Positions 3,717-24,909 of a stretch of DNA of 28,145 bases are shown in pieces; position 1 is the stretch's first letter, and each line of letters starts with the position of its first letter. Below the pieces are notes generated by a model. The model was not told the origin of the DNA, did no database searches, and was given only the letters and a program-made list of their open reading frames with translations. The position numbers and the translations under genes were made by a program. The stretch spans positions 1 through 28,145 of IMG/VR virus record IMGVR_UViG_3300025057_000037. One strand, 5' to 3'. The stretch comes from a virus.

Positions 3717-5723
3717 TTAGGCTCCGAATGCTTGAACCGCTGGTACTCCTGCTCCTGTAGCAAGTGCGTTTAACAAGTCTTCAACATCTTTATGTCTACC
3801 TACTTCAACAAAGATGTCATAGTTGATATCCTCGTTGATTCGTCTTCCAAAACCTTGAGTTCTGTTAAAGTGACTAACAGTCAATGTGTACTGAACGTAC
3901 TGCTTAGACTGCTCTTCAATGTTTGAAGTTTCTCCACGAAGAAGTCTTCCTAAGTACTCTTTTCTGTAGTTAAGTCCTCTGAAGTATGATCTTCCTTCGT
4001 TTTCGAAAGCCCTCAAGTTTCCTCCTAGGTGAGTTCTTGGAATCCATCTAGAAAGGTACTTAGGCTCATATCTTCCTTTTGGAAGTCTGCCAATACCTTC
4101 ACGGATTTCTTCAGGGTATCCTGCTGCAACTCTAATTTGAGTTGAAGTTTCAGTGAATCCTACTAAATCTCTTAAACACTCATCTCCTTCTAAGATAAAC
4201 TCTTTAGATTTAAACTTGATACCGCATAAACAGTTTCCTTCTGGAAGAACTCCTGCGGTCTCTACCTTAACCCAGCTTTGAGTATCATAACTTTCCGGTG
4301 CATCAGTTTCGTAAAGACCTTTGAATACGTCATCACACTCCTCACAAACAAGGTTTGAAATAACTGTAGTTTCGTAAGTAGTCTGACAAGCTGTTGGAGC
4401 GATTGTTTGAGATTTAACAACTTCTGTATCAAAAGCTGCGTTCAATTCAGCAAGTCTATCATTTCCACACTCGTCATCCGGTAGTGTAATTCTGTAAGTC
4501 TCTTCGATTACGTTACAAGTACCACATTGAGTCCACGCAGTTATTGTTTCGTTTCTATTCTCACAAAGATCTGCTACATCTACAGGACTACTGAATGTTG
4601 CTGTAGCATGAGGGTCACCTGTTCCTATAAATGTACTGATTTCTGCATCAGTTAATGGAGCTGTTGTTATAAAAGTGTAGTAGCCTACACCTGCATTTTG
4701 GCCATCAGACTTTAAAACTGATCCACCTACAAAGCTAGCGCTCGCTGCAGCTAAGTCAACTTCAAGTGTAGCTGTTAAATCGGCTCCATCATCTTCAATT
4801 GTTAAAGCATAAAAAATTCCTCCAGTTACTTCTGCGTAACCTTCAGGGCAATCTTCACAACCTTTAATAAAAGATGCTATTGTTTGTATAAAATCTGATG
4901 GTGCTCCTGCAGTAGCCGGTAATAATAACTGATACTTTGAAGTTGGTCCAACTCTGTCGATTCTCTTAACAGGTACATCGTATTGTGCAGCTACAAGAGC
5001 TTCAGCCTCATCAGTTCCTGTGTCACAAACTTCTAAGCAGTAGAAGTTGTAAGCGATTTCGTCTGGAGTAGCCGGTGTATCACAGCTAAATACAGGTGTA
5101 ATATCAACTAGTTGTCCTACAGTAAGTCCACCAGTTAGTTGTTTAGCTTTCAATCTTTCGATTGCCTCAATAGTGATTGTTTTACAATCAACTGTTGAAC
5201 ATTCGTCACATTCTTCGCAGTTATTAAAAGGGTCACACTCAGGAACTTCTACATTAATGTTAACCACTTCTGTATCTCCTTTGCCTCCACGGAATGCTAC
5301 CGCACCTCCTTTTAGTTCTAAAGATAGTCTGAAGTATGCGTCTCCTGTTTGAAAACTAAATGCAGTGTTTGCATTTACTCCGTCATAACCAATAATAACT
5401 TCGTCTAGTGACTGTTCTGTACGTTCTGGAGTGCTAACTTTAAGGTCAACGATGTCTCTCAAAGAGAAGGGCATTGTTGATTCGTCTTTGTTAGAATAAG
5501 AACGATTTGATTCTCTATCTGCAACTCCAAGTCTAAGAACAAAATCTTTTGCGTCCTTATCTTTTCCTGCAGTAGATGTTACTACTTTTGCACCATTGGA
5601 AGTTGTTACTGATTGGTCAATCAAAGCTAACTGCCCCTTTGCCAAGTCAAGAGAACCTCCAGTGGTTTTAACAGCACCTCCTATTACGAAAAAAGGTCTG
5701 TCAAATGCTCTGTTTAATCCCAT
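3717..5723 (-). CDS. Cysteine-rich large virion protein, 668 aa
   Basis: This is probably a structural protein of the tail or neck, judged by size and by its place between head genes and fibres. The N-terminal ~150 residues (MGLNRAFDRPFFVIGGAV...) and the C-terminal ~130 residues (RYEPKYLSRWIPRTHLGG... to GVPAVQAFGA) contain no Cys. The middle, about residues 160-530, holds some 20 Cys, many as CxxC or CxC (NCEECDEC, CEDC, CGTC, CEECDD, CLCG). That middle looks like repeated insert domains that bind metal or form disulfides on the virion surface, fitted into a conserved outer shell. Tail-sheath or tail-tube identity is possible but not demonstrable. It ends at a strong terminator and follows the 222-aa gene after 29 bp. 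Confidence 0.65.
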   Translation of the reverse strand: MGLNRAFDRPFFVIGGAVKTTGGSLDLAKGQLALIDQSVTTSNGAKVVTSTAGKDKDAKDFVLRLGVADRESNRSYSNKDESTMPFSLRDIVDLKVSTPERTEQSLDEVIIGYDGVNANTAFSFQTGDAYFRLSLELKGGAVAFRGGKGDTEVVNINVEVPECDPFNNCEECDECSTVDCKTITIEAIERLKAKQLTGGLTVGQLVDITPVFSCDTPATPDEIAYNFYCLEVCDTGTDEAEALVAAQYDVPVKRIDRVGPTSKYQLLLPATAGAPSDFIQTIASFIKGCEDCPEGYAEVTGGIFYALTIEDDGADLTATLEVDLAAASASFVGGSVLKSDGQNAGVGYYTFITTAPLTDAEISTFIGTGDPHATATFSSPVDVADLCENRNETITAWTQCGTCNVIEETYRITLPDDECGNDRLAELNAAFDTEVVKSQTIAPTACQTTYETTVISNLVCEECDDVFKGLYETDAPESYDTQSWVKVETAGVLPEGNCLCGIKFKSKEFILEGDECLRDLVGFTETSTQIRVAAGYPEEIREGIGRLPKGRYEPKYLSRWIPRTHLGGNLRAFENEGRSYFRGLNYRKEYLGRLLRGETSNIEEQSKQYVQYTLTVSHFNRTQGFGRRINEDINYDIFVEVGRHKDVEDLLNALATGAGVPAVQAFGA

Positions 5724-5752
5724 TGTTTTAGAATTTTATGTTTGTATTTATG

Positions 5753-6421
5753 TTAAATTGCCGAAAATAATCTTTGTCCATCTAATTGGTAGCTCGCTGT
5801 ATCGTTATTTATAGCTGCATATTCTTTAGCCATTGCTAACAATATTCTTCCTACCACTTTATCATCTAATTCCGGATGAACATCTTGGGAAGGATTCCCG
5901 TTTGGGTGAATATACCCACTTATATCTACCTTTTTAGGGTATCTATAATAAGACAATTCTGCCTTATCTATTTTAAAGTCTTTTTTATATACAGCCACTT
6001 TGTTAGAAGCTGTTGTATAGAAGGTTTCAGTGTAAGGTATTGAAGGTTCGTTATATTTATCATTATATGACTCTTCAAGATCCTCGTTTTTGATTTCCCA
6101 ACACTTTAGTTCTACATTGTTACATGAACTGTTGGAGGCGAATACATTCAAGTTAGATAAATCAAAATAATCGTCTGGTAATTTGAAGTCATCGTGCCTA
6201 GTATTCGATGATACCTTTGGAAGTTTTTTATCTAGTACTAGTAGTGGTGATACATATCTGATAGCGTCCTCATTTCTTTTCTCTAATATCCATTCTAAAT
6301 ATCTATTTTGAATATCGTTGAATATTATAATGAATCTAGGTTTATCTACGCTTAAATTGTTGTTAGTTAGGTTTCTGTTAACCAGGTTTACAAATTGTAG
6401 ATATGCTTCATCAATCTTCAT
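5753..6421 (-). CDS. Putative head-tail adaptor (neck) protein, 222 aa
   Basis: The N-terminal half is helical (DEAYLQFVNLVNRNL, IIFNDIQNRYLEWILEKR). It is followed by KLPDDYFDLSN, a 'P.DY..L' element common in phage head-completion and adaptor proteins, then a beta-rich part with YYRYPKKVD. The C-terminal part is helical (LDDKVVGRILLAMAKEYAAIN). That order, and its place after capsid genes and before a large virion protein, fits a gp6/gp15-like or crAss-type ring protein. The first 11 bp overlap the end of the 320-aa gene, suggesting coupled translation. The function is inferred from architecture. Confidence 0.5.
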   Translation of the reverse strand: MKIDEAYLQFVNLVNRNLTNNNLSVDKPRFIIIFNDIQNRYLEWILEKRNEDAIRYVSPLLVLDKKLPKVSSNTRHDDFKLPDDYFDLSNLNVFASNSSCNNVELKCWEIKNEDLEESYNDKYNEPSIPYTETFYTTASNKVAVYKKDFKIDKAELSYYRYPKKVDISGYIHPNGNPSQDVHPELDDKVVGRILLAMAKEYAAINNDTASYQLDGQRLFSAI

Positions 6422-17720: not shown

Positions 17721-17960
17721 ATGATTGACGAAGAATATTATGATCCGGACGAAGCTCAGTACTTTTATGAGACTATTAATGAGATACCGGAAGAGGTGCT
17801 TTCAGATGATTTTTATGAGAGAAATTCTGATTTAGTAAACGCTATTTCAAACTCTCTTTGTGATGTAAACAAGATTACTAGGGGAAAGCTGCCTACTGAA
17901 ATAGGTGTAAAAGTTATGGTCGCATTTTTTGCTAGTTTGAAAATTCACGGATTAAGATAG
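17721..17960 (+). CDS. Acidic hypothetical protein, 79 aa
   Basis: The ATG at 17721 is preferred because it follows a -7-like box by 15 bp and the upstream part of the frame is AT-rich non-coding-like sequence. The first half is strongly acidic and aromatic (MIDEEYYDPDEAQYFYETI), and the second half is neutral to basic (KITRGKLPTEIGVKVMVAFF). No family is recognised. An acidic small protein at the front of an early operon could mimic DNA or bind a host protein, but nothing proves it. It is followed by the promoter of the structured RNA. Confidence 0.55.
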   Translation: MIDEEYYDPDEAQYFYETINEIPEEVLSDDFYERNSDLVNAISNSLCDVNKITRGKLPTEIGVKVMVAFFASLKIHGLR

Positions 17961-17979
17961 GTATATTAAAAATATTTTC

Positions 17980-18004
17980 TATATTTGCACACTTACATAG
18001 TGTG
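17980..18004 (+). promoter_or_regulatory. -7 promoter box and overlapping palindrome before the structured RNA
   Basis: TATATTTG at 17980-17987 is a perfect TAnnTTTG -7 box of the Bacteroidota type; no TTG is found at the -33 position. Right after it, CACACT (17988-17993) and AGTGTG (17999-18004) form a perfect inverted repeat around TACAT that covers the expected start site. The palindrome could be a repressor site or the 5' stem-loop of the transcript. Confidence 0.5.
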
Positions 18005-18008
18005 TTTT

Positions 18009-18309
18009 ACAACAGTTTTGACATGGACAACTCAAAACTCTAACTAATAAGAGACTCTTCAACAAGTGGGTAACCTCACAATTTGAATCTCGGCTCTGTT
18101 TGCCAACAACCGAGTCCAGCAAACTCTAAATGGGATGGCGTTGGAGAGAAGAAAAAGCCAAATATCGGAAATCGCAATATGCGATAAAGATATGAATACA
18201 TAAGAAATGGTCCTGGTACTTATTGCTCTTGATTGGTTTAGTAGCGGTATTTCCGTGAAGCTCCTGCAGAGTTGGCTTTGCTGGTAAAAAGGTGAGTTGT
18301 GTCTTGTTT
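18009..18309 (+). ncRNA. Unassigned large structured RNA (~290 nt) upstream of recA
   Basis: No protein frame fits these bases, but they fold into a closed multi-branch structure by eye. The outer helix is GACA+CAACTCA (18020-18023, 18028-18034) with TGAGTTG+TGTC (18293-18303). Inside are hairpins GTGGG-TAAC-CTCAC (18066-18079) and CTCGG...CCGAG (18089-18114), then a long-range helix CCAGCAA (18116-18122) with TTGCTGG (18278-18284). Continuous with it is AGCCAA (18156-18161) with TTGGCT (18272-18277). Further hairpins are CTCTAA/TTGGAG (18124-18146), ATATC/GATAT (18162-18193) enclosing ATCGCA/TGCGAT (18171-18185), and AATAC/GTATT next to ATAAG/CTTAT (18195-18251). A -7 box precedes it and a terminator follows. 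It does not match tmRNA, RNase P, 6S or group I/II intron signatures that I know. It may be a free RNA or a cis-acting leader of recA. Confidence 0.65.
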
Positions 18310-18328
18310 AAAAATCAATGTTTTATTT

Positions 18329-18358
18329 GGCGGTTTAGAAATAAATCGCTATTTTTAT
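18329..18358 (+). terminator. Intrinsic terminator between the structured RNA and recA
   Basis: GGCGGTTT (18329-18336) pairs with AAATCGCT (18343-18350) through a 6-nt loop AGAAAT, with two G-T wobbles, and is followed by TATTTTTATG. It ends 16 bp before the recA start. Either it ends the RNA as a separate transcript or it acts as an attenuator for recA. A weak promoter for recA (TTG at 18304-18306, TATTTG at 18324-18329) may overlap it. Confidence 0.55.
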
Positions 18359-18374
18359 GCTCAAAAATTAACAG

Positions 18375-19352
18375 ATGGGAATATCAAATGAAAAACTCAA
18401 GGCCCTCCAAAAAACATTTGGGCAAGGTGCAATTATGAAAATGAATGATGCACCAAAGCTAGACCTAAAATTTGTGTCAGCTGGATCTCTAGACCTTAAC
18501 CACGCTCTTGGTGGCGGATACCCTTTAGGTAGAATCATAGAAATATACGGACCGGAATCTTCTGGGAAAACAACTTTAGCTATACATGCTATTGCAGAGG
18601 CACAAAAAGACGGATTGATATGTGCTTTTGTTGATGCCGAACACGCTTTTGACAAATCTTACGCAGAAGCTTTAGGTGTGGACACAAATGAACTTCTTAT
18701 CTCTCAACCGGACAGTGGTGAGCAGGCCCTTGATTTAGTTGATGCACTAATAGACACAGACGAGGTGAGTGTTATCGTAGTAGATTCAACATCAGCGCTA
18801 ACACCAAAATCCGAACTAGAAGGGGAAATGGAGAAAAGTGCAGTCGGTGTTCAAGCTAGGATGTTGTCAAAAGGCCTTAGAAAGATAACAGCAAAAGCTC
18901 AAAAGAAGGAGTGTTTAGTTATATTCATTTCTCAATTGAGAGAGAAGATTGGTGTTATGTTTGGATCACCTGAAGTTGTTGGTGTTGGTAATGCTATGAA
19001 GTTTTATGCTTCGCAAAGGATTGATGTAAGAAGGTCAACACAGGTAAAAGATAAAGAATCCGGAGAAGCTGAGGGGAACATAACCAGGGCAAAAGTTGTA
19101 AAAAACAAAATAGCACCTCCATTTAGAGTAGCTGAATATGTAATTAAGTTTGGAGTGGGGATTGATAAGGACCAAGAGATTTTTGACTTAGCTGTAGCTA
19201 TGAATATAATTGAAAAAGCTGGGTCATGGTTTTCATATCAAGGAACAAAACTTGGTCAAGGGGGTGTAAAAGTTTTAGAGATACTAAAAGACAACCCGGA
19301 ACTTATGGAAGAACTAAAAGCTCAAGTAATCGAAGGGTTAAAACAACAGTAA
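18375..19352 (+). CDS. recA: RecA recombinase, 325 aa
   Basis: RecA forms ATP-driven filaments on ssDNA and pairs it with homologous duplex during recombination and repair. Seen here: Walker [10 protein letters not shown] at residues 59-67, VDAEHAFD at 86-93, Walker B VSVIVVDS at 131-138, the [12 protein letters not shown] region at 186-197, [13 protein letters not shown] in the core, and a short C-terminal domain ending EGLKQQ. It is about 28 residues shorter than the E. coli protein and lacks the long acidic tail. It resembles cellular RecA more than T4 UvsX, suggesting capture from a bacterial host. Loop L2 is odd: VVGVGN replaces the usual TTTGGN. The neighbours are a GIY-YIG nuclease and an SSB-like gene. 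Confidence 0.93.
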
Positions 19353-19353
19353 C

Positions 19354-19845
19354 ATGGAGCACAAATGGATATACAGTCAGAATGATATATTAGTGGATGT
19401 ATCCATTGATTACAAATCGCATGTGGACATAAAGAATATAAACGACATTCCCAAAGAAGCTGTCGGTTTTATATATCGTATAATAGATGAGAATGGTAGA
19501 CAATATATTGGTCAAAAATCTCTTTATACAAAAAGGAAAAAACATTTTGGTAAAAGAGAATTATCTAAAATAAAAGACAAAAGAAAAAAGACATATAAGT
19601 ACGTAATAAAGGAATCTAATTGGCTTTCTTATACCGGATCAAACAAAGAGTTAAATGAAAACATAAAGAACGGTCTAAAGTACACAAAACAAATATTGAA
19701 GTACTGTTTCAGTAAGAAGCAACTAAATTACTATGAAACAAAGTACCTCATGATTTTCGGTGTAATAGAGCCTGGTAATGCATCGTATAATGCAAATGTT
19801 CAAGGTAAATTTTACCCCAAAGATTTATTAAATGAATCGAATTGA
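19354..19845 (+). CDS. GIY-YIG family endonuclease, 163 aa
   Basis: Residues ~37-55 contain GFIYRIIDENGRQYIGQKS, the GIY-YIG signature with its two Tyr residues, followed by a Lys/Arg-rich helix and WLSYTGSNKELNENI. The likely catalytic Glu lies in LNYYETKYLMIF. GIY-YIG enzymes cut DNA. In phages they occur as free-standing homing endonucleases or as recombination/repair nucleases. No intron or split gene is nearby, and the place 1 bp after recA suits either a repair role or a homing gene settled behind recA. The N-terminal ~35 residues are unassigned. The end overlaps the next gene by 14 bp. Confidence 0.8.
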   Translation: MEHKWIYSQNDILVDVSIDYKSHVDIKNINDIPKEAVGFIYRIIDENGRQYIGQKSLYTKRKKHFGKRELSKIKDKRKKTYKYVIKESNWLSYTGSNKELNENIKNGLKYTKQILKYCFSKKQLNYYETKYLMIFGVIEPGNASYNANVQGKFYPKDLLNESN

Positions 19846-21745: not shown

Positions 21746-23317
21746 ATGAATAGACATATATACGATATAGACCTTGTGAAGAGTCTATGTAAAAATCAAC
21801 CTAAAGGCGAGTTTAACTGTACAAATATCGCCAAGGAATACGCTAAAAAGAAAGACTTAGAATACAGTGTATCTATAGCAAGACGAATTCAGGGTATAGT
21901 AGAGAAACATGGACTACATACTGAAAGAATAAAACCAAAAAAGCATGCTCAATTTACGATGGCATGCAATAGGGATTTTAATCAAACTAAAAAGAATGCT
22001 ATAATCACATGGGCTCAGGCTCTCACGCCAATTCATGATGAACTATGGAAGAATATTCTATCTTACGCTAAGTACCATGATGCAGAGGTAATTGTTATTC
22101 CTGGGACATATCTTAACAACAATTCCCCTTTCATGTGGAAACGCACATACGCTTGGGATGATAGATTAACGGATTATCTTTACGCAACAGAGGCGAGTAT
22201 TCATAATCATCTTTCTATAATAGCCGATACCGATATTGTACCAACAGCAAAGAGGCCTCTTAGAAACCTACAAGGGGTTACCGGGATAGAAAGTAGTATT
22301 GTTGGACATCCTAGACAGCAAATGATTATATCTCCAACAATGAAGAACAGAAGGCGTAAGTTTATGTTTTCTACAGGATCAATTACTGTTCCAAATTACA
22401 GAAGAGCAAGAGTTGGTAAAGAGGCAGCTCAATATCACAGAATGGGATTCTTGTTTGTTGAGAACATATCCGATGAAAATTTTGTAGCCCGACATGTACA
22501 CGCAGAAGAAGATGGGTCATTTCAAGATTTAATTTTTAGAGTAGAGGATGAGAAAATTACATTGAAGAATGATTGGGAGGCTATGATATTCGGAGACACA
22601 CACCTATCAAAAGAAGATAAGGAGATGTTAGAGGAATCACGTAGGCTTTTCACACTTGGTAAGTGTAAGAAATCAATATGGCATGACTTGTTTGATGGTT
22701 ACTCAATAAATCATCATCAGTCTAAAAATCATGTAGCCCAAGTTATAAAGGCTAATAAAGGATTACATAAGCTAGACAAGGAAATAGAAATAAATATGTC
22801 TTTTATAAAAGATTGGAAAGACACAAATATGATTATAGTCCCTAGTAATCACCCTGATTGGATTGATAAATGGGTTTGTTATAATCAAGGAGTAAAAGAT
22901 GCTCACAATGCTATTTTATTTAATAAATTTCAGTCTATATTATTTAATGAGTTAGCTCCAAAAGGTTTATATGCTTATATAATAGAGGAGAACTTCGGTG
23001 ATGAGGTTATTTGTTTAAATAGAGACGAGTCATACGAAATATGTGGAATAGAGATAAACAATCATGGTGACTTAGGCTCTAATGGAGCAAAGGGTACTCC
23101 TGAAACATTTGCCAAACTTCCTCACCCAGTTATTTCTGGTGACAAACATTTCTGTTATACAATAGATGATGCTTATGGAGTTGGAGTTTCAGCTGTTTTA
23201 GATCATGGCTACAATGCAGGAATGTCTAGTTGGGCACAAAGTAACGGAATCATTTTATCAAACGGTAGATTTCAACATCTACTTTATTTCGATGGAAAAT
23301 TTACTAATCTAATATAA
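21746..23317 (+). CDS. T5 A1-like metallophosphoesterase, 523 aa
   Basis: The first ~60 residues look like a helix-turn-helix domain (FNCTNIAKEYAKKKDLEYSV, ARRIQGIVEKHG). The C-terminal half contains an ordered set of metal-ligand motifs of the calcineurin-like phosphoesterase type: GDTH (residues 283-286), HDLFDGYSINHH (313-324), SNHPDW (367-372) and NNHGDLGSNG (438-447). Among phages, this layout and the H-G-D-L-G motif fit the T5 A1 group, implicated in DNA transfer and host DNA breakdown. The expected activity is a metal-dependent nuclease or phosphatase. It sits 8 bp before groEL. The family call is from memory of motif order; the phosphoesterase motifs are visible. Confidence 0.55.
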   Translation: MNRHIYDIDLVKSLCKNQPKGEFNCTNIAKEYAKKKDLEYSVSIARRIQGIVEKHGLHTERIKPKKHAQFTMACNRDFNQTKKNAIITWAQALTPIHDELWKNILSYAKYHDAEVIVIPGTYLNNNSPFMWKRTYAWDDRLTDYLYATEASIHNHLSIIADTDIVPTAKRPLRNLQGVTGIESSIVGHPRQQMIISPTMKNRRRKFMFSTGSITVPNYRRARVGKEAAQYHRMGFLFVENISDENFVARHVHAEEDGSFQDLIFRVEDEKITLKNDWEAMIFGDTHLSKEDKEMLEESRRLFTLGKCKKSIWHDLFDGYSINHHQSKNHVAQVIKANKGLHKLDKEIEINMSFIKDWKDTNMIIVPSNHPDWIDKWVCYNQGVKDAHNAILFNKFQSILFNELAPKGLYAYIIEENFGDEVICLNRDESYEICGIEINNHGDLGSNGAKGTPETFAKLPHPVISGDKHFCYTIDDAYGVGVSAVLDHGYNAGMSSWAQSNGIILSNGRFQHLLYFDGKFTNLI

Positions 23318-23325
23318 AAACCAAA

Positions 23326-24909
23326 ATGTCAAAAGAGGTAGTTTTTGATAGCGAGGCTCGTGAGAGGCTTATGAAAGGCGTTGATACGCTTGCAAATTCT
23401 GTAAGAGTGACGTTAGGAGCTAAAGGCCGTAACGTTATGATAGGAGAAGGTATGTACGCAGCTAGTGTGACTAATGACGGTGTTACTGTCGCAAGGTCAA
23501 TTGAACTAGATGATGCAATCGAAAACATGGGAGCTTACTTTCTAAAAGAAGCCGCAGCTAAAACCGAAGAACAAGCCGGTGACGGAACTTCAACTGCTAC
23601 AATCCTTACTCAATCCATGTTGCGGACCGGGATGAAATACCTTGCTGCCGGAGCCAACCCAATGGATTTAAAAAGAGGCATGCAGTTAATGTCAAATAAA
23701 CTCCTAGATAAAATAGACGAAATAGCTACAAAGATTGAATACGATAGTGAAGAGGTAAAACATGTAGCTACGGTTTCAGCAAACAACGACCAAGAACTAG
23801 GTATGCTTATCGCTGATGCATTTAAGAAAGTAGGAAAGAATGGTATTGTAGCTGTAATGGAATCCGGAGGTCTTGAAACAGAAGTAAATGTTGTTGAGGG
23901 TATGGAGATAGACAGAGGATATGTTGATAGAGCATTCTGTACTAACGGAGAAAAGATGACAGCCGACTTAGAGGATTGTTATATTCTAATCACTGATGCC
24001 AAGATATTTAGTTTTAGACAACTTCTACCAATACTTGAGAAGATTAACAAAAAGAATAAACCTGTAGTTATCATATCGGATGAGATTGATCAGTTAGTTT
24101 TACCTACCATAATCCTAAATCATAGTCAAAGTTTAATTAATGTCGCATGTGTTAAAGCTCCAGGTTTTGGTAATGAGAGAGATGATATCCTAGAAGATAT
24201 TGCCACGGTTACCGGTGGAACAATCATATCTGAAGCGAGGGGTATGAAATTAGAAGATGCCGAAATAGATATGCTAGGAGAAGCTTCTAAAGTTCATATC
24301 TCTATTGATAAAACTGTGATAATCGATGGGTTTGGTGAAACGGAAGATATTGAAGAGCGAATGAAACAAATCAAGGAGTTCGCTGAAAAGGAGAAGGATG
24401 ATTACAAGAAATCAAAACTTATAGAAAGGTTAAGTAAAATAGCCGGAGGTATAGGCGTTATCTATGTAGGAGGTCACACTGACACTGAAGCTGAAGAAAG
24501 AAAGCTAAGAGTTGATGATTCAGTAGCTGCAACAAAAGCTGCAATAGAGGATGGTATTGTTCCTGGAGGAGGTGTTACTTTAGCTTTGGCAGGACACACA
24601 GTAGACTTTGACAGCATCAAACTACCTAACAGAGATCAGGAGTTGGGTGCTGATATTGTTTTATCAGCATTGAAAGAACCTCTCAGCCAAATTGTAAAGA
24701 ACGCAGGTCAATCCCCAGACGTTATCCTAAATGAAGTCCTAAAGAAAAAAGATGGGACAGGTTATAACGTAAATACAGACGAATACGAGGATATGATTAA
24801 AGCTGGTATAGTTGACCCTGCCAAAGTAACTAAATCGGCTCTTAGAAACGCTGTATCAATCTCTTCTATGGTAATTACCACAGAAGTTGTAGTGGCTAAT
24901 AAAAAATAA
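23326..24909 (+). CDS. groEL: GroEL chaperonin (phage-encoded), 527 aa
   Basis: A full-length group I chaperonin subunit that encloses and folds proteins with GroES in an ATP-driven cycle. Seen: VTLGAKGRNVMI near residue 28, NDGVTVAR near 50, the ATP-binding GDGTST at 85-90 with Asp86, VKAPGFGNERDD in the apical domain, GGIGVIYVGG, and RVDDSVAATKAAIEDG with the catalytic Asp of the intermediate domain, followed by VPGGG. The C-terminus ends VVVANKK, without the Gly-Gly-Met tail of cellular GroEL. In the apical GroES/substrate site, GYVDRAF replaces E. coli GYLSPYF, losing the second Tyr. A phage-specific substrate, such as the capsid protein, is plausible. Confidence 0.95.
   Translation: MSKEVVFDSEARERLMKGVDTLANSVRVTLGAKGRNVMIGEGMYAASVTNDGVTVARSIELDDAIENMGAYFLKEAAAKTEEQAGDGTSTATILTQSMLRTGMKYLAAGANPMDLKRGMQLMSNKLLDKIDEIATKIEYDSEEVKHVATVSANNDQELGMLIADAFKKVGKNGIVAVMESGGLETEVNVVEGMEIDRGYVDRAFCTNGEKMTADLEDCYILITDAKIFSFRQLLPILEKINKKNKPVVIISDEIDQLVLPTIILNHSQSLINVACVKAPGFGNERDDILEDIATVTGGTIISEARGMKLEDAEIDMLGEASKVHISIDKTVIIDGFGETEDIEERMKQIKEFAEKEKDDYKKSKLIERLSKIAGGIGVIYVGGHTDTEAEERKLRVDDSVAATKAAIEDGIVPGGGVTLALAGHTVDFDSIKLPNRDQELGADIVLSALKEPLSQIVKNAGQSPDVILNEVLKKKDGTGYNVNTDEYEDMIKAGIVDPAKVTKSALRNAVSISSMVITTEVVVANKK

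Follow-up and report, generated by a model that had tools for sequence, protein, structure and literature searches.

GOLLD and ROOL are phage RNAs which are often located near tRNA islands; both form RNA cages, and their function is not known (PMC12286853). GOLLD members often exceed 800 nt, and the phage-borne ROOL has a complex secondary structure with pseudoknots (PMC12286853). Few large structured RNAs are known from phages, and a compact, clearly pseudoknotted family from crAss-like phages would give a tractable example.

The window, namely the whole stretch of 28,145 nt analysed here, is a 28-kb virus record and a fragment of a genome. Its terminase and a virion structural protein are closest to those of Cellulophaga phages phi17:2 and phi4:1 (38% and 34% identity), and the major capsid protein of phage csAssE-Sib finds a 39% match in the window. 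We take these phages to be crAss-like relatives, and on the basis of these structural genes the window phage is assigned to the crAss-like phages.

The non-coding region before recA and its homologues

A gap of about 410 bases lies between a small gene and the phage recA (Table 1). The original prediction placed a large structured RNA of unfamiliar class there, at 18009–18309. The description holds: the region carries a conserved multi-helix fold and belongs to no Rfam family. The conserved core of about 310 nt begins slightly upstream of the predicted span. In line with the non-coding character claimed for it, 17961–18374 contains no ORF of at least 50 aa on the + strand, and the G+C content of the RNA is 0.39 versus 0.18 and 0.25 in the flanks.

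Table 1. Features of the window at and around the structured RNA (H1–H9, helices)
Feature	Position	Strand	Remarks
Small gene, upstream neighbour	17724–17960	+	38% identical to the L001/L002 counterparts
-7 box TATATTTG, presumed RNA promoter	17980–17987	+	TAnnTTTG type
Conserved core of the RNA	17995–18302	+	nhmmer, covariance model R1, RNAalifold
H1 closing stem, 5' arm ACATAGT	17995–18001	+	pairs with GTTGTGT (18296–18302), partly G-U
H2 hairpin AGTTTTGA/TCAAAACT	18014–18039	+	invariant; pairing Fisher p 4e-6
H9 candidate, H2 loop GGAC	18025–18028	+	with GTCC (18210–18213); GTAC/GTAC in relatives
H8 5' arm AACTAATAAGAG	18042–18053	+	pairs with 18226–18230 and 18232–18238
H3 5' arm CTCTTCAAC	18055–18063	+	pairs with 18140–18148; Fisher p 5e-5
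H4 hairpin CTCGG/CCGAG	18089–18114	+	CTCAG/CTGAG in L001; one double change
H5 5' arm CCAGCAAA plus CTCT	18116–18127	+	pairs with 18277–18284 (TTTGCTGG) and 18268–18271 (AGAG)
H3 3' arm GTTGGAGAG	18140–18148	+	stem test and hand alignment
H6 hairpin ATATC/GATAT	18162–18193	+	four double changes (hand alignment); alone not significant, p 0.05
Conserved, mostly unpaired stretch GAATACATAAGAAATGGTCCTGGTAC	18194–18219	+	alignment; 26 bases
H8 3' arm CTCTTGATTGGTT	18226–18238	+	MAFFT-stem and CM-alignment tests
H7 hairpin GCGG/CCGT	18244–18256	+	Fisher p 2.6e-4
H5 3' arm AGAG ... TTTGCTGG	18268–18284	+	hand and CM alignments
H1 3' arm	18296–18302	+	CM-alignment test
Terminator-like hairpin TGGCGGTTTA/TAAATCGCTA with TTTTTA tail	18328–18356	+	presumed RNA end; hairpin 18328–18351
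Phage recA, downstream neighbour	18375–19352	+	Pfam RecA E 2e-108
SegE-type GIY-YIG homing endonuclease-like gene	19354–19845		directly 3' of recA, retained in relatives
Homologue of A1-like DNA transfer protein	21746–23317		PHROG 1745
GroEL homologue, in crAss-like phage	23326–24909		PHROG 5725, Pfam Cpn60_TCP1

A RecA search of IMG/VR led to twelve loci, two of which (L001 and L002) carry a homologous stretch in the same place. Their RecA proteins are 70% and 67–68% identical to that of the window, the small upstream gene adjoins the RNA in 3/3 phages, and nhmmer aligns the window RNA to the two stretches with E values of 7e-22 and 6e-28. We built a covariance model, R1, from these three sequences. 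It scores the members at 303–347 bits, with 303.5 bits for the window (17993–18317); the family thus defined has three members, two of which are close to each other. A decayed gene was rejected as the origin of the region: in each of the three copies the longest open stretches are short, run mostly antisense and lack conservation.

Wider searches returned no further member. R1 found nothing convincing in the other fetched loci, 14 more whole IMG/VR records and six whole annotated-phage records, where the best non-member scored 16.6 bits over 70 bases of phi4:1, not syntenic and far below the members. Five scans of IMG/VR with DNA patterns of conserved motifs, the fifth relaxed, recovered L001 and L002 as the only members. 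The further loci returned, L016–L051 and L052 (Rothia, the sole match in genome contigs), were rejected at R1 scores of about 15 bits or less, and R1 finds no match in L068. The small upstream protein as query found nothing, and a search with the A1-like protein led to L059, L062, L063 and L064, all four of which lack the RNA. By blastn, the L002 RNA matched nothing among phages (E ≤ 1) or plasmids (E ≤ 0.1), and with the window as query the phage search at E ≤ 10 returned nothing beyond short matches of about 30–35 nt (E about 1 to 5).

The searches also covered known RNA families. At gathering score, Rfam 15 gave zero matches in the window, and at E ≤ 10 the RNA region of all three members gave chance-level matches only. 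ARAGORN and Rfam found no tRNA or tmRNA in the window. RNase P RNA, 6S, SRP RNA and group I or II introns gave no gathering match and none in the region at E ≤ 10, which agrees with their exclusion in the original prediction; HEARO was likewise without an Rfam match. The top match by bits, located at the region start, is the S15-Flavobacteria ribosomal protein leader (RF03161). Membership was rejected because its 20.3 bits (E 5.1) fall below the gathering score of 46.5, and the 5' letters aligned to this family are those of the -7 box.

A conserved pseudoknotted fold

The folding energy of the single sequence is ordinary (z = -0.71), so that the structure is supported by comparison and not by stability. 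We set aside the single-sequence minimum-energy fold, which is no better than shuffles and is at odds with the conserved helices. For the same reason, a fold drawn by eye from one sequence is unlikely to be right throughout.

The best stem of the unedited MAFFT alignment reads AAGAG/CTCTT in the window, AGGGA/TCCCT in L001 and AGAGA/TCTCT in L002. It contains four double changes, compared with a maximum of three in 100 column shuffles. Alignment-independent stem tests, with p values combined by Fisher's method, gave the values listed in Table 1 for H3, H7 and H2 and weaker ones for H8 (0.01), H4 (0.03), H1 (0.04) and H6 (0.05); the segment used in these tests ended within H5. RNAalifold yields -51.2 kcal/mol, whereas column shuffles average -24.0 (sd 4.0), which gives z = -6.8. 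The minus strand reaches z = -4.5 nearly without covariation; that it folds better than its null is to be expected of complementary DNA.

When a pseudoknotted structure of 58 pairs is scored on the CM alignment, 95.9% of its cells are paired and 11 pairs are changed on both sides. None of 500 shuffles (0/500) reaches either the paired fraction or the double-change count. Slid controls show 33–38% pairing, a control that favours the structure, which was derived from the same three sequences. The hand alignment, in which slips were permitted in H3 and H5b, has 21/65 pairs double-compensated; this count is biased towards the structure and is to be read beside the 58-pair test. With compensatory changes exceeding those of shuffles, the stretch before recA is a real, conserved, pseudoknotted structured RNA. 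A match to a known family, an absence of covariation and a decayed gene were each looked for, and none was found.

The fold comprises about ten helices. H8 and H3 are neighbouring long-range helices, both covarying: H8 has four double-compensated pairs, and H3, with one bulged A in L001, shows double changes in the hand and CM alignments. The 3' arm of H5 lies after the 3' arms of H3 and H8, and the long-range helix CCAGCAAA/TTTGCTGG therefore crosses both of them as a pseudoknot. Its first part, H5a, has 8 pairs with one double change in the CM alignment. For H5b, three double changes in the hand alignment, with a slip in L001, tentatively suggest pairing, and H9 is an equally tentative candidate of only 4 pairs with one double change. 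H1 is 95.2% paired with one-sided changes only, and H7 becomes ACATAG/CTATGT in L001 and GCATA/TATGT in L002.

Only part of the fold originally drawn by hand survives this comparison. The two-part long-range helix proposed there keeps its CCAGCAA/TTGCTGG half, corresponding to H5, with 7/7 pairs in both relatives. Its AGCCAA/TTGGCT half keeps only 4/6 and 1/6 pairs. The proposed 11-bp outer stem is likewise specific to the window sequence: the ACAACTC/GAGTTGT part retains 4/7 pairs in L001 and 3/7 in L002, and the GACA/TGTC part 2/4 and 4/4, respectively. Its bases instead belong to the invariant hairpin AGTTTTGA/TCAAAACT, and it is H1, ACATAGT/GTTGTGT, that closes the fold.

The RNA sits where the late block (terminase, portal and structural genes; - strand) diverges from the replication block (+ strand). 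The GC skew also turns here, and the locus adjoins the cumulative-skew minimum. Such a position would suit a DNA-level element, for example a replication origin, in which the repeats act as DNA and not as RNA. Gene orientation alone can account for the skew, however, and covariation and G-U pairs are found on the + strand only (RNAalifold covariation term 4.75 versus 0.1 on the - strand). Because the covariation is confined to one strand, we regard a DNA origin as highly improbable.

Between H6 and the 3' arm of H8 lies conserved, largely unpaired sequence, GAATAMATAAGAAATGGTNCTGGTA. The 26-base stretch in Table 1, or the loops, might bind phage or host messages, making the molecule a regulatory RNA that acts by pairing with mRNA. 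Against this, no strong predicted start-region target in the phage genomes is common to the orthologues of two phages beyond chance-like ranks, and an elaborate pseudoknot is unusual for pairing RNAs. We consider this role very unlikely.

Guide or template RNAs of nucleases and reverse transcriptases typically have about 300 nt and a pseudoknot. The size and the pseudoknot of the present RNA would fit an omega RNA, a tracrRNA-like RNA or a retron RNA. Yet the reverse transcriptase domain RVT_1 is absent from five records (G000, G001, G002, G013 and G014), and TnpB and Cas12f1-like proteins gave no match in five records. Both searches, limited to these protein groups, detected their controls; for the window they cover a 28-kb fragment. 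Together with the lack of a match to HEARO or any other Rfam family, this leaves a guide or template function with hardly any probability.

Transcription signals and the relation to recA

The motif TAnnTTTG is the flavobacterial sigma-A -7 consensus (PMC9723704). As originally proposed, a -7 box, here of this type, precedes the RNA and a terminator-like hairpin follows it (Table 1). The box is present in 3/3 phages, with homologous copies at L001:4598 and L002:4612. A second TAnnTTTG stands between the RNA and recA in both relatives, 14 bases or so ahead of the recA ATG (TAAATTTG at 4979 in L001; TATATTTG at 4980 in L002). One such box is expected by chance with a probability of 0.03–0.09 per interval. 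Singly, each box is weak evidence, and the whole set is moderate. The search for terminator-like hairpins found 1 in the window against 0.4 expected in shuffles; L001 and L002 contain no G+C-rich terminator.

These signals bear on the question, left between two answers by the original prediction, of whether the RNA is free or a large cis-acting leader of recA. In the latter case, the recA mRNA would begin with this RNA, which, as an attenuator, riboswitch or autoregulatory site, would control the transcription or translation of recA. The RNA is indeed directly upstream of recA on the same strand in 3/3 phages. The second -7 box of the window is imperfect and overlapped by the terminator tail, so that read-through or attenuation is conceivable. 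In both relatives, however, the second box separates the RNA from recA, which makes a free RNA likelier than a leader. Moreover, about 70 bases separate the end of the conserved structure from recA, and nothing conserved in structure extends to the start codon. A leader is thus unlikely, though it keeps some weight.

We propose that the region is probably a free, independently transcribed gene for a pseudoknotted non-coding RNA, which represents a new family in a small crAss-like lineage of Bacteroidota-type hosts. Judging from the sequence signals, transcription would run over about 365 nt from the RNA's own -7 box to its own terminator, and a separate promoter would serve recA.

Related loci and comparison with GOLLD and ROOL

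At the corresponding position, phi17:2 and phi4:1 have a small gene, more than 20 tRNA genes and a stretch of about 650 nt, most of which is unannotated. The small gene is weakly similar to that of the window (HMM 6.5 bits, single-target E 5e-4). In phi17:2, this stretch of about 650 nt (L081:9800–10460, at 91.8–92.5 kb) follows the tRNA array and is annotated with a small hypothetical ORF only; a -7 box, TACGTTTG, stands at its start, and it has no Rfam match. The RNA profile (nhmmer), compared with ten other loci, has its sole match in 35 bases of the phi17:2/phi4:1 stretch at 2.5–2.7 bits, a score reached by 2/500 shuffles, and R1 does not detect this stretch. The match is a hint of a wider family but no proof of one. 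Compared with the window RNA, the stretch is alike in its corresponding locus and this weak profile match; it differs in being longer and in following over 20 tRNA genes. In distant crAss-like phages, tRNA arrays occupy roughly this locus; the array of Leptolyngbya phage Lbo-JY46, too, lies upstream of the terminase homologue.

The loci of other relatives vary at this position. In L059, a 311-aa ORF takes the place of the RNA; its A1-like protein is 70% identical and its RecA only 52%. In L062, the small upstream gene and recA are about 500 nt apart (5340–5860), with no long ORF in between. This sequence is unlike the window RNA and has no meaningful Rfam match, and the RNA profile finds no match in it. 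Integron attC-like motifs (GTTAGGT ... GCCTAAC ... GTTAGAA) stand on both sides of a small ORF at L062:5850–6110, as in a gene cassette; its left edge also occurs in Cellulophaga phage phi18:3.

We also notice a second non-coding stretch of about 190–240 nt, conserved in the two relatives, at L070:14180–14420 (G001, about 34.2 kb) and, in reverse, at L078:10540–10800 (G002, about 90.6 kb). The two copies have a mean column identity of 84% and a G+C content of 0.38–0.40, and the G002 copy contains no tRNA and no Rfam gathering match. The window record stops short of the corresponding position.

It is conceivable, if on balance doubtful, that crAss-like phages have at their late/early divergence a wider class of ornate, fast-evolving RNAs, beside a tRNA array or replacing it, and that the present RNA is one of its branches. 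The stretches of about 650 nt in phi17:2 and about 500 nt in L062 would then be other branches, and the mechanism by which the class acts, in trans and during infection, would be a new one. Since the cultured Cellulophaga phages phi17:2 and phi4:1 have the corresponding locus, RNA expression from it is directly testable.

Among known RNAs, the window RNA resembles GOLLD in being a phage-encoded structured RNA, with tRNA arrays at the matching locus in distant relatives of its phage. It differs in size, with about 310 nt where GOLLD often exceeds 800 nt; GOLLD gave no match in the window, and none at E ≤ 10 in any member. With ROOL it shares the phage-borne nature and a complex fold with pseudoknots, whereas it is smaller, has no linked tRNAs in the window and does not reach the ROOL gathering score in any of the three members. 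GOLLD and ROOL are phage-borne, often lie near tRNA islands and form RNA cages, and hence our working idea is that the window RNA, too, would act in trans, as a folded object. By analogy, trans action is the best reading: in the manner of GOLLD and ROOL, the RNA may work through its folded shape, with a protein, the ribosome or the RNA itself as its partner, as its structure and context suggest.
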